Source of the DNA: Flavobacteriaceae bacterium 3519-10
GTDB lineage: Bacteria > Bacteroidota > Bacteroidia > Flavobacteriales > Weeksellaceae
NCBI GenBank assembly: GCA_000023725.1
Contig: CP001673.1
Span: forward strand, 568,342 to 632,341
DNA: 64,000 nt
Reading direction: 5' to 3'
In this document: positions 23,658 to 24,785 of the stretch, in pieces
How positions within the stretch are numbered: position 1 is the first letter of the stretch
Layout: each line of letters opens with the position of its first letter
Position numbers and translations under genes: made by a program
The notes under the pieces: model-generated
What the model was told of the DNA's origin: nothing
The model's database searches: none
The model's input: only the letters and a program-made list of their open reading frames with translations

Positions 23658-23759
23658 CCGTGAATTTTATAAGATACAAATTTAAGTAATGAAAAGTATA
23701 TTTCGTGTTTTAATCATGCCACGTTTGACATCATACCAAGTTTCCAATCATCGAATAAT

Positions 23760-23873
23760 TCATTTTGTGGAGTCTGAAAGATGTTTGCGTAGTCTTTCAT
23801 TGAGATTTTTGTGGGTGTGACCGATGTAAAAGCGCTCAAGAAATTTAGAATATAAAATGTAGCAGAAATACAT
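23760..23873 (-). pseudogene. GIY-YIG endonuclease gene, truncated copy 1
   Basis: Starting at ATG 23873 it reads [35 protein letters not shown] and stops after 37 codons. It matches the first 34 residues of the open copy at 24332-24583, then diverges. The catalytic GIY-YIG strands (YIL, YIG) and the ERLRKH segment survive, but the rest is absent, so it is most likely a dead remnant at the distal end of the array. Confidence 0.75.
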
Positions 23874-23898
23874 TTTTTTGAAATTTATAACAAAAAAA

Positions 23899-23925
23899 AG
23901 ACTGAGAATGATTTTCTCAGTCTTT
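23899..23925 (-). terminator. Array hairpin 1 (tRNA-type terminator)
   Basis: AAGACTGAGAA / TTCTCAGTCTT around a short loop, with a run of eight A on its left that becomes poly-T on the minus strand. Same hairpin as at 24250 and 24605. Confidence 0.75.
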
Positions 23926-23929
23926 TAAG

Positions 23930-23994
23930 TGTGCGCGCTAGGATCGAAAACGGCCGTCCCGATTAAAAATCGGGATGCACTATCCAGTTGCGTC
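23930..23994 (-). pseudogene. tRNA-Arg remnant A
   Basis: Aligned to the intact tRNA at 24636-24709, it keeps the 3' acceptor strand (GTGCGCGCTAGGAT on the plus strand), a rebuilt anticodon arm with stem TCCCGAT / ATCGGGA, and the D-arm CTGGATAG. The T-arm pairing is lost (GATCGAAAACGG) and the 5' acceptor strand is replaced by endonuclease coding sequence, so it cannot be a working tRNA. Confidence 0.75.
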
Positions 23995-24225
23995 AATCAG
24001 TTTTTTGATTTTAATGCTGCTTTTCCATGATCTCAAATTCCCTTTTGTAAGCCGCGCTTTTGTCCGAAAAAGTTTCTTAATAAATGATGATCCAGTCCTT
24101 TGCTCTGGAGGTAAAACCATGATGATGTGAAAGGTGTTTACGCAATCTTTCATCGAGATTTTCGCCGGTGTGACCGACATAATAACGATCAAGTGATTTA
24201 GAATATAAAATGTAGCAGAAATACA
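23980..24225 (-). pseudogene. GIY-YIG endonuclease gene, copy 2, inactivated
   Basis: From ATG 24225 the frame reads [20 protein letters not shown]... and is nearly identical to the open copy for 49 codons. It then hits TAA where the open copy has TCA (Ser), followed by an indel in the region corresponding to [10 protein letters not shown]. After the shift the frame again ends [13 protein letters not shown] inside tRNA remnant A. Two independent lesions show real decay, not a sequencing slip. Confidence 0.8.
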
Positions 24226-24249
24226 TTTTTTTGAAATTTAAAAACAAAA

Positions 24250-24275
24250 AAAGACTGAGAAAAATCTCAGTCTTT
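24250..24275 (-). terminator. Array hairpin 2 (tRNA-type terminator)
   Basis: AAAGACTGAGA (24250-24260) / TCTCAGTCTTT (24265-24275), perfect 11 bp with an AAAA loop, poly-T on the minus strand. Confidence 0.8.
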
Positions 24276-24280
24276 AAAAG

Positions 24281-24345
24281 TGAGCGCGCCAGGATTCAAA
24301 AACGGCCGTCCCGATTAAGAATCGGGATGCACTATCCAGTTGCGT
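24281..24345 (-). pseudogene. tRNA-Arg remnant B
   Basis: Keeps the acceptor 3' strand TGAGCGCG and most of the D-arm (CTGGATAG) of the intact tRNA. The T-arm reads GATTCAAAAACGG, so it no longer pairs, and the anticodon arm is replaced by TCCCGATT / AATCGGGA. Its 5' end is the 3' end of the endonuclease gene 24332-24583, whose TAG stop is the TAG of the D-loop. Confidence 0.8.
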
Positions 24346-24583
24346 CAATTAGTTTTTTGAATTTAATGCTGCTTTTCCATGATTTTACCTCGAGTTCTCT
24401 TTTGTAAGCCGCACTTTTGTCCGAAAAAGTTTCTGAGTAAACGATGATCCAGTCCTTTGCTCTCGAGGTAAAGCCATGATGATGTGAAAGGTGTTTACGT
24501 AATCTTTCATCGAGATTTTCGCCGGTATGACCGATGTAATAACGATCAAGAGATTTAGAGTATAAAATGTAGCAGAAATACAT
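24332..24583 (-). CDS. GIY-YIG nuclease family protein (copy 3, intact)
   Basis: 83 aa, the normal size of the small UPF0213/YhbQ-type GIY-YIG proteins. [16 protein letters not shown] carries the two family strands (YIL and YIG), with Arg in [13 protein letters not shown], and the C-terminal [17 protein letters not shown] holds the conserved Glu and Lys. The final residues LIDATG are read from tRNA-derived sequence, and the stop TAG lies in the D-arm of tRNA remnant B. It sits 22 bp beyond the terminator hairpin of tRNA-Arg. Whether it nicks DNA at the tRNA gene or acts on other substrates is not known; the tandem array suggests self-spreading. Confidence 0.88.
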
Positions 24584-24604
24584 TTGAACTGTCTTAAAAC
24601 AAAA

Positions 24605-24630
24605 AAAGACCGAGAAAAATCTCAGTCTTT
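24605..24630 (-). terminator. Array hairpin 3, terminator of tRNA-Arg
   Basis: AAAGACcGAGA / TCTCAGTCTTT with an AAAA loop, T-run on the minus strand, 6 bp beyond the tRNA 3' end. Confidence 0.8.
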
Positions 24631-24635
24631 AAAAG

Positions 24636-24709
24636 TGAGCGCGCCAGGATTCGAACCTGGGACCGTCTGCTTAGAAGGCAGATGCTCTATCCAGCTGAGC
24701 TACGCACCC
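24636..24709 (-). tRNA. tRNA-Arg (anticodon TCT)
   Basis: 74 nt without CCA. Acceptor GGGTGCG pairs with CGCGCTC (two G-U pairs), D-arm AGCTCAGCTGGATAGAGC, anticodon stem TCTGC / GCAGA with loop CTTCTAA (TCT), T-arm CCAGG-TTCGAAT-CCTGG, discriminator A. It reads AGA codons. It is the only intact member of a family that has at least three remnants within 800 bp. Confidence 0.95.
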
Positions 24710-24710
24710 A

Positions 24711-24785
24711 TTAATGTGTTTTTCTCGAACTTTCTGACCGTTCCGATTGAAATCGGAATGCTCTATCCAGCTGAGCTACGCACCC
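24711..24785 (-). pseudogene. tRNA-Arg remnant upstream of tRNA-Arg
   Basis: The 5' 27 nt (GGGTGCGTAGCTCAGCTGG...) are identical to the intact tRNA-Arg up to the anticodon arm. That arm reads TTCCGATTTCAATCGGAA and makes a 6-bp stem with a 6-nt loop. The 3' part (AGAAAGTTCGAGAAAAAC) keeps only the TTCGA of the T-loop and cannot pair with the acceptor. Immediately adjacent to the intact gene, it is probably a decayed duplicate. Confidence 0.7.

Follow-up and report, generated by a model that had tools for sequence, protein, structure and literature searches.

The tRNA-Arg(tct) gene in the 64,000-nucleotide stretch analysed here (the window), from a Kaistella-like bacterium, is followed by a tandem array of small GIY-YIG endonuclease genes and tRNA-Arg remnants. 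From this array and from occupied and empty tRNA loci in other genomes, we conclude that the unit is probably a minimal homing-type mobile element of about 0.45-0.5 kb, which invades tRNA genes and puts a working tRNA back in their place. Its sole gene would encode a GIY-YIG nuclease that stands alone and is about 80-100 aa long.

The features of the window locus are listed in Table 1. The original prediction, made from the sequence alone, described GIY-YIG genes and tRNA-Arg remnants in tandem behind an intact tRNA-Arg, with three terminator hairpins; ARAGORN, TRF, and Pfam confirmed the arrangement, and all three hairpins were recovered. The direct array spans 23775-24652 with a period of 353/357 bp (TRF score 1337, 88% matches). 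The tRNA-Arg(tct) gene is followed by an intact, a stop-containing, and a truncated copy of the nuclease gene, and the terminators of the array are near-identical. Copy 2 is 90% identical to copy 1 over residues 1-68, while copy 3 retains 36 residues at 75% identity. Because copy 2 contains a stop, and copy 3 is truncated and less identical, decay rises with distance from the working tRNA, as had been proposed.

Table 1. Features of the tRNA-Arg locus (positions are those of the window).
Feature	Position	Strand	Remarks
tRNA-Pro(tgg) and tRNA-Ser(gct), upstream members of the host tRNA cluster	24835-25018	-	ARAGORN
Left (5') tRNA-Arg remnant, upstream of the working tRNA	24710-24785	-	
Intact tRNA-Arg(tct)	24635-24709	-	ARAGORN; anticodon stem-loop 24666-24682
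Terminator hairpin behind the intact tRNA	24605-24630 (core 24608-24627)	-	GACTGAGA..TCTCGGTC type
GIY-YIG nuclease gene copy 1	24332-24583	-	intact, 83 aa
Right remnant 1	24280-24342	-	aligns to tRNA-Arg nt 13-75; 3' end CGCGCTCAC
Terminator hairpin 2	24250-24275 (core 24253-24272)	-	
GIY-YIG copy 2	23980-24226	-	pseudogene with in-frame TAA
Right remnant 2	23929-23991	-	upper end set by analogy with remnant 1
Terminator hairpin 3	23900-23922 (core)	-	
GIY-YIG copy 3	23766-23873	-	5' fragment only

In both right remnants, a palindrome of the TCCCGATT..AATCGGGA kind stands where the anticodon arm would be (TCCCGATTCTTAATCGGGA, 24309-24327, in remnant 1; TCCCGATTTTTAATCGGGA, 23957-23975, in remnant 2). 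The left remnant holds nt 1-27 of tRNA-Arg (24759-24785), a palindrome TTCCGATT..AATCGGAA in exchange for the anticodon arm (24741-24758), a piece of the variable loop, and a broken T arm; a remnant of this type is missing from the empty allele of genome G026. This 5' remnant and the palindromes in all three remnants had been overlooked in the original prediction. From its placement relative to the remnants, we take the intact tRNA-Arg(tct) to be the copy that the element brought in. The terminator type behind it also trails tRNA-Arg in two GIY-free loci (L058 and L059). The TAG stop of copy 1 falls within tRNA D-loop sequence. The last six codons had been assigned to the D-arm as well; since the alignment of the remnant starts at tRNA nt 13, only about the last three codons and the TAG are clearly tRNA-derived.

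Thirty tRNA-Ser-Pro-Arg clusters were fetched, the Pro-Ser piece being found in 36 of 36 genomes of the genus. In 24 of the 30 the fetched stretch has no match to the window protein, so that the empty loci predicted for a mobile unit do occur. They may be alleles that lost the unit cleanly instead of ones that it never invaded, and recombination between short direct repeats might remove the unit without trace. In a tRNA-Arg pair from related genomes with flanks 80-82% identical, the empty and the occupied allele cease to match at tRNA nt 28 and match again from nt 55. In the occupied allele, a 481-bp insert contributes a whole tRNA with a terminator of its own, followed by the nuclease gene, and the 5' spacer and terminator of the host are kept on the outside of the unit. 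At tRNA-Ala in a second genus, two pairs break at nt 27/45, a third breaks at nt 24/45, and a fourth has no clean left-hand break. In the pair L276/L281, which lacks a left remnant, the tRNA 3' end and the host terminator are pushed behind the nuclease gene. The occupied loci that were compared with empty ones have the host tRNA broken at or near the anticodon arm, and its 3' end and the host terminator lie downstream of the nuclease gene. The element's terminator is of the type that serves as host terminator at GIY-free loci in other genomes, a resemblance expected if the copy is donor-derived.

These comparisons support a refined view, in which the unit would split the original tRNA, bring in a replacement, complete or covering the 3' part, that carries a terminator of its own, and swap a tRNA segment for a palindrome. 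The earlier idea of a mobile unit is supported, as neither of the two outcomes named as refuting it was observed. The unit does lie inside a tRNA gene in the occupied allele, and from the sequence we infer that it is mobile. Repeated entry is less likely for the window, where one left remnant stands against two right remnants and a truncated third gene, so that tandem duplication fits better; nested left remnants at two other loci (G013 and L279) do fit repeated entry.

The association with tRNA genes extends across the phylum. When GIY-YIG matches from 22 complete genomes were examined, 23 of 81 proved to lie no more than 250 bp downstream of a same-strand tRNA, against a chance expectation of about 0.15, which rests on an assumed rather than counted complement of about 50 tRNA genes per genome; the predicted nearness to tRNAs is borne out. 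A same-strand tRNA lies at most 300 bp upstream in 51 of the 60 top-scoring phylum-wide GIY-YIG loci. The same-strand layout of tRNA and nuclease was found at 15 ARAGORN tRNA labels across many families of Bacteroidota, several labels occurring once only. The A1 profile has matches in 253 of 395 Bacteroidota genomes and 128 of 170 genera; these are upper bounds, because the same profile picks up GIY-YIG proteins that have no tRNA nearby as well. No left remnant was detected at 95 of 122 loci, the 5' part standing upstream only in a minority. Certain tRNA-clade members lack a tRNA even though upstream sequence is present (e.g., L145, L168, and L182), and in others the tRNA is instead downstream of the GIY-YIG gene (L247, L254, L261, and the first copy of L238). 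A search for other RNA genes at 38 GIY-YIG loci, a few of them tRNA-linked, against Rfam at gathering scores returned only tRNAs and one Flavo-1.

The 83-aa window protein belongs to the GIY-YIG superfamily (PF01541, 60.5 bits versus a gathering score of 22.6). No Pfam domain besides the GIY-YIG catalytic domain and no NCBIfam model at E<=0.001 was found in it. Y16, G18, R27, E63, and others, which we take to be the catalytic residues of the domain, are invariant in nine diverse members. The protein has nearly full-length profile matches to solved UPF0213 proteins (1zg2, E 2.5e-12; 1ywl, E 1.9e-10), and UPF0213 proteins (BH0048 and EF2693) share the same small GIY-YIG domain by profile; we know of no tRNA association for them. 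In a quick tree, all tRNA-labelled rows fall into one clade (SH-aLRT 99), and in the genomes studied the tRNA-linked proteins and most of the others form separate clades. Grouping by isotype within the tRNA-linked clade exceeds chance. The nuclease is under purifying selection: dN/dS is 0.07-0.19 in 10 unsaturated pairs, and among hand-picked sequences pN is smaller than pS in 91 of 91 Arg pairs (14 sequences) and 28 of 28 Asp pairs (8 sequences).

The pattern TCCCGAN{2,12}TCGGGA has two matches in the window, versus 0.07 expected from shuffles. A REP-like dispersed palindrome was ruled out, as there are only seven places in the 2.77 Mb genome (two of them here) versus one for the reversed control pattern. 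A right-hand TCCCG stem is present at 72 of 114 tRNA-associated loci, at 1 of 36 GIY-YIG loci away from tRNAs, and in 0 of 3480 mononucleotide shuffles; with TTCCG and TCTCG stems added, the counts are 86/114, 1/36, and 2/3480, and at 28 of the 114 no right palindrome with any of these stems was found. Changes in one arm are matched in the other (TCCCGATT/AATCGGGA, TTCCGATT/AATCGGAA, TCTCGTC/GACGAGA, and TCCCGCA/TGCGGGA). Of 101 right palindromes, 18 could not be placed on a tRNA, and 43 of the 83 placed ones replace exactly the anticodon stem-loop. The site is tied to the isotype: nt 28-44 in 24 of 25 placed Arg(tct) cases, nt 39-50 (14 cases) or 51-59 (8 cases) in Asp, and nt 26-35 in six of nine placed Asn cases; in some isotypes it is the T arm.

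We propose that the nuclease would cut element-free tRNA genes within or close to the segment that the palindrome marks, and that the gap would be repaired by copying the element from a donor allele, with the tRNA flanks as homology. Since the element brings a replacement tRNA or its 3' part, the essential gene would be restored. The palindrome may mark copies that can no longer be cut, and nested or tandem arrays may come from renewed cutting of the carried tRNA or from recombination between short direct repeats. Immunity of the occupied allele is less certain: the remnants are palindrome-altered, but the carried tRNA retains an ordinary anticodon arm, which counts against the proposal. Also counted against it are the loci with no detected left remnant or palindrome, the palindromes that could not be placed, the differing palindrome sites of the isotypes, the clade members with no tRNA or with one downstream, and a nuclease that consists of a catalytic domain only. 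Immunity through a recoded tRNA was rejected. The first loci in the genus of G630 had suggested that occupied tRNA-Ala genes have the anticodon stem CTTGC and empty ones CTACG, and this failed once 50 loci were compared: CTTGC loci comprise 9 with a GIY-YIG gene, 29 without, and 3 undecided, and CTACG loci 2 with and 6 without, plus one CTACG..TGTAG locus without. In the window's genus, G019 and G028, which are occupied, have exactly the same Ala tRNA as many other genomes, including G000, whose tRNA-Ala locus has no PF01541 match.

A broader reading is possible, although we doubt it. The elements would form a Bacteroidota-wide class in which each nuclease is dedicated to one tRNA isotype. Each element would enter its tRNA gene at a set position, often exchanging the entire 17-nt anticodon stem-loop for a hairpin of its own, and by supplying a working tRNA it would hold an essential gene hostage. 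Recognition of a DNA hairpin, be it the anticodon arm or the palindrome, would then give a hairpin-swap mobility distinct from known homing, transposition, and site-specific recombination.

We weighed four other explanations. The array could be a local tandem duplication with a passenger, in which a UPF0213-like gene came to lie behind a tRNA on one occasion and the remnants arose by unequal crossing-over, with no movement between loci; duplication of tRNA genes is frequent. The 353-357 bp period, the near-identical terminators, at least two copies (partial ones included) in 44 of 126 distinct tRNA loci, and an array in G014 that repeats whole, intact tRNA-Val(gac) genes every 471 bp all agree with it. 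We nevertheless consider it unlikely, as it leaves unexplained why a single clade occurs at 15 tRNA labels in many families, why the palindrome sites are isotype-specific, and why the host 5' spacer and host terminator both lie outside the unit. A single-strand-specific nuclease, like the Ssn nucleases of Neisseria, might act on hairpins in DNA that is taken up or exposed at replication, with palindrome and anticodon arm both as substrates and the tRNA site as a by-product. The exact replacement of a natural hairpin in those 43 placed cases, by palindromes with matching arm changes, and the UPF0213 proteins as nearest solved relatives would suit this reading, which is improbable given that the palindrome is no genome-wide repeat.

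A host-kept amplifier, whose nuclease drives segmental amplification of tRNA genes, e.g., to outlast tRNA-cleaving defence systems or toxins, has a precedent in SegB of phage T6 (PMC13096335), and arrays are common, that in G014 having intact tRNA-Val copies. In the examined arrays, however, what is repeated is for the most part broken remnants and copies of the nuclease gene rather than working tRNAs, and two members have no PADLOC match; this explanation is unlikely as well. The direct repeats of tRNA 3' ends that flank the unit recall the attachment sites of a tRNA-targeting integrative element or prophage. That the unit is the residue of one is highly improbable: the 481-bp insert holds only the tRNA, the terminator, and one small GIY-YIG gene, with no integrase or tyrosine recombinase, and the window protein has no relative in phage, plasmid, or viral-contig collections, nor does one Asp-type protein have any in viral contigs. 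A group I intron in the tRNA was rejected, as L042 gave only tRNA hits at Rfam gathering scores and an uninterrupted tRNA is present.

If the homing-type reading is true, the unit is a protein-coding mobile element of very small size, able to target essential genes since it brings the cure with it, and it may be widespread in Bacteroidota. It would explain small GIY-YIG genes with C-termini running into tRNA sequence, as well as pseudo-tRNA arrays and contig breaks at tRNA loci, and it would yield isotype-linked nucleases whose candidate sites the genome itself marks.

Among the matches listed in a full-text literature search (titles and abstract openings, with subscription journals and preprints outside its scope), none describes tRNA-linked small GIY-YIG elements in Bacteroidota. 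REP/RAYT-type systems also link a small nuclease-like gene to a conserved palindrome. Their enzyme is a tyrosine transposase, whereas here the enzyme is GIY-YIG and the palindrome is not dispersed. A phylogenomic study of GIY-YIG proteins mentions tRNA three times in the portion considered, never as such a link (PMC1564403).

The reading also ties in with SegB of T-even phages, described in the sections considered as a GIY-YIG enzyme that is encoded beside tRNA genes, cleaves within them, and causes their amplification; it prefers RAWTSGAAC and drives tandem amplification of the tRNA segment (PMC13096335). The loci described here resemble SegB in pattern only, with genes adjoining tRNAs and the segment in tandem copies. 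The SegB site fits the reverse complement of the T-arm sequence GTTCSAWTY. SegB is a phage gene, whereas here the nuclease is chromosomal and the tRNA itself is split and rebuilt. Two members have no match among the PHROGs families at E<=0.01, and tblastn of the window protein matched no phage record.

Fungal mitochondrial mORFs, which together with SegB come nearest to the unit among known systems, are known, in the text considered, from Allomyces atp6, Glomus atp6, atp9, cox2, and nad3, and Rhizopus atp9 (PMC3630166). As here, an endonuclease gene lies within the host gene, a replacement 3' end is carried, and the native 3' end is moved downstream; the Glomus atp9 case involves a GIY-YIG enzyme, and close relatives have element-free genes (PMC3630166). 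Our loci match this type both in having an element inside a gene, with occupied and empty alleles of the same site, and in gene restoration, with an intact tRNA and a displaced native 3' end and host terminator. The mORFs sit in protein-coding mitochondrial genes, whereas the units described here sit in bacterial chromosomal tRNA genes and combine a palindrome swap with a whole replacement gene, neither of which is among the mORF features described in that text (PMC3630166).

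In the window, the array claimed by the original prediction was confirmed as tandem, with a period of 353-357 bp (TRF score 1337). The same prediction had the nuclease gene end in tRNA D-arm sequence over six codons and the stop. The TAG stop does lie in D-loop sequence (GGATAG); however, only about three codons and the stop are tRNA-derived, since similarity to the tRNA begins at tRNA nt 13. GIY-YIG copies 1 and 2 differ mainly by silent changes over the aligned stretch (pS 0.28, pN 0.017). In all three tRNA remnants, the anticodon arm is swapped for a palindrome, which the prediction did not mention. 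The window contains two instances of TCCCGAN{2,12}TCGGGA (0.07 expected). This motif is found at only seven places in the 2.77-Mb genome, and a dispersed repeat was therefore ruled out. The first 27 nt of the left remnant match the intact tRNA-Arg exactly, so that recombination would easily remove this remnant.

Features of the tRNA cluster and the tRNA-Arg array, in minus-strand order from 25018 to 23766, and palindromes in the remnants
Feature	Position	Strand	Remark
tRNA-Ser, then tRNA-Pro	cluster starts at 25018, running down	-	upstream members of the tRNA cluster
Left remnant of tRNA-Arg	24785-24710	-	
Palindrome of left remnant	24741-24758		TTCCGATT..AATCGGAA
Intact tRNA-Arg(tct)	24709-24635	-	terminator next
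GIY-YIG gene, intact copy 1	24583-24332	-	3' of terminator behind intact tRNA-Arg
First right tRNA-Arg remnant, then terminator	between GIY-YIG copies 1 and 2	-	terminator near-identical to first
GIY-YIG copy 2	after second terminator	-	in-frame TAA
Second right tRNA-Arg remnant, then terminator	after GIY-YIG copy 2	-	
Palindromes of right remnants	24309-24327 and 23957-23975		TCCCGATT..AATCGGGA
GIY-YIG copy 3, 5' fragment only	lower end 23766	-	last array member

The unit lies inside the tRNA gene and splits it, as comparisons with empty alleles show for two isotypes. The tRNA-Pro-Ser piece was present in all 36 genomes of the window's genus, and tRNA-Arg(tct) in all 30 fetched loci; a match to the window protein followed the tRNA in six of these loci and was lacking in 24. 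A left remnant was detected in all six GIY-bearing loci and in one locus without GIY (L046). Between an empty (G026) and an occupied genome (G034), the alignment spans the upstream cluster up to tRNA nt 28 (82% identity), restarts at nt 55 (80%), and from there crosses the native terminator of the host and reaches the following gene. The 481-bp insert comprises a complete tRNA-Arg, a terminator unlike the host's, and the nuclease gene. This terminator is of the type found behind tRNA-Arg in the GIY-free genomes G020 and G033, which fits a donor-derived copy. For tRNA-Ala in another genus, the right break is at nt 45 in three pairs, and the left one at nt 27 in two of them and at nt 24 in the third; in a fourth (L274/L268), the alignment passes the left junction with no clean break. 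In the pair L276/L281, without a left remnant, the 3' end of the tRNA is displaced downstream along with the terminator of the host; other pairs tried alongside were not clean empty/occupied comparisons. An empty locus is no proof of never having been invaded, because short direct repeats permit clean loss. By eye, one tRNA-Arg locus counted as lacking GIY (L061, genome G001) appears to have a decayed right remnant and a degenerate palindrome downstream, possibly a trace of past occupation.

A TCCCG-stem palindrome was found downstream of the nuclease gene in 72 of 114 tRNA-linked loci (86 with TTCCG and TCTCG stems), compared to 1 of 36 GIY-YIG loci not linked to a tRNA and 0 of 3480 mononucleotide shuffles (two with stem variants). 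Random windows of the fetched loci gave 161 of 4000 (213 with variants), a control contaminated because many of these loci are element arrays. A change in one arm of the stem is mirrored in the other. Among the 83 of 101 right palindromes that could be placed on the tRNA, 70 overlap the 17-nt anticodon stem-loop and 43 replace it exactly, within one nt (Arg(tct) 24, Ala 9, Val(tac) 7, and one each in Arg(acg), Met, and Pro(cgg)). The site is tied to isotype: in Asp it lies at nt 39-50 (14 cases) or 51-59 (8 cases), and in six of nine placed Asn palindromes at nt 26-35. In a heuristic search of 122 loci, 25 to 27 showed a left remnant, a count that omits the Flavobacterium-like Ala loci, many of which have them.

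A PF01541 census of 22 single-contig genomes from nine genera gave 107 matches. We set aside 26 with frames of at least 296 aa (22 UvrC-like, four others) and examined 81, including three with frames of 235-287 aa. Twenty-three follow a same-strand tRNA at a distance of 250 bp or less, and 13 further matches are array members trailing such tRNAs, up to 1.6 kb away. The other 45 have no same-strand tRNA upstream within the fetched stretch (one has an opposite-strand tRNA 1.95 kb off), and an Rfam scan of some of these loci found no other RNA nearby except one Flavo-1. The GIY-YIG profile A1 matched in 222 of 296 genomes of the family and in 253 of 395 genomes and 128 of 170 genera of the phylum; these are upper bounds, since A1 also matches GIY-YIG proteins away from tRNAs. 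Across the phylum, 60 loci that had 300 bp or more of upstream sequence were drawn, non-randomly, from the highest-ranking matches, mostly skipping contig-edge matches; in 51, a tRNA on the same strand precedes the gene by no more than 300 bp, and no opposite-strand tRNA was listed in these stretches. Of the remaining nine, three (L247, L254, L261) have a downstream tRNA and six have none. ARAGORN labels at tRNA-linked loci, several of them single occurrences, were Arg(tct), Arg(acg), Asp, Asn, Ala, Val(tac), Val(gac), Met, Gly, Phe, Lys, Pro(tgg), Pro(cgg), Thr, and Ser. In some distant genomes (L238, L247, L254, L261), tRNA-Ser or tRNA-Val lies downstream of the GIY-YIG gene, not upstream. 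Several draft contigs end within or beside these genes (G240 C3 and C18, G022 C1/C2, G194 C48); assemblies may therefore break there, and copy numbers may be underestimated.

In a quick, midpoint-rooted tree from few columns, all rows labelled by a same-strand tRNA within 1300 bp upstream fall into one clade (SH-aLRT 99). Of the 107 rows it holds 73, of which 61 are labelled; the 12 unlabelled ones include contig-edge rows, L145, L168, and L182 (no tRNA in reach), and L020, left unlabelled by hand (tRNA-Met 639 bp upstream); the 34 other GIY-YIG rows fall outside. Isotype labels cluster within the clade (29 changes vs 71 in shuffles, 110 rows), so that isotype mostly passes down by descent and switches now and then. 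The nuclease is under purifying selection. Of the 91 pairs among 14 hand-picked Arg-type sequences, 10 were unsaturated, with dN/dS of 0.07-0.19; none of 28 Asp-type pairs was unsaturated, and pN was below pS in all 91 and all 28 pairs, respectively. The closest solved proteins are UPF0213 BH0048 and EF2693. A second small GIY-YIG group without a nearby tRNA occurs in the same genomes (L153 and L179 in G014 and G029; L102, L105, L162, and other loci), also as near-copies, four close together in G029 and two in G014; the members at L102, L105, and L162 terminate in or near GFDSAQPD.

Behind tRNA-Ala, repeated units of pseudo-tRNA and terminator without nuclease stand beside one with nuclease (L014 in G019, L015 in G028), like non-autonomous copies. 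In G014 (L180 / L010), intact tRNA-Val(gac) genes are arrayed every 471 bp; two are followed by a GIY-YIG gene and then a tRNA-Val(tac) 3' remnant with that tRNA's own terminator.

Sequence comparison shows the layout, its position inside split tRNA genes of two isotypes with empty alleles, its breadth, the palindrome, and selection on the nuclease; the anatomy is that of a homing-type element which restores the gene it enters. We infer cleavage, copying, immunity, and selfishness of the element. The nuclease would cut the tRNA gene at or near the segment replaced by the palindrome, gap repair would copy the element from a donor with the tRNA flanks as homology, and the palindrome would protect the remnants. 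The carried tRNA has an ordinary anticodon arm. Its escape from cutting through recoding was tested and rejected, as tRNA-Ala alleles do not track occupancy. Two anticodon-stem alleles of tRNA-Ala(ggc), CTTGC/GCAAG and CTACG/CGTAG, occur in the genus of G630 (L269, L272-L275, and L278 vs L267 and others); the second is common among loci lacking GIY in one syntenic group but overall does not follow occupancy. Any one of three properties could account for the escape: that the nuclease prefers single-stranded or cruciform DNA, that it is weakly expressed behind the terminator, or that its recognition site is wider. In G013 and L279, left remnants are nested, which suggests that the carried tRNA sometimes does not escape.

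Full-text literature searches listed no description of such a tRNA-linked GIY-YIG element, and papers beyond its coverage may exist. The phage GIY-YIG enzyme SegB shows that such an enzyme can cut tRNA genes, causing tRNA-gene amplification (PMC13096335). The mORFs of fungal mitochondria also restore the gene they enter, in their case protein genes (PMC3630166).
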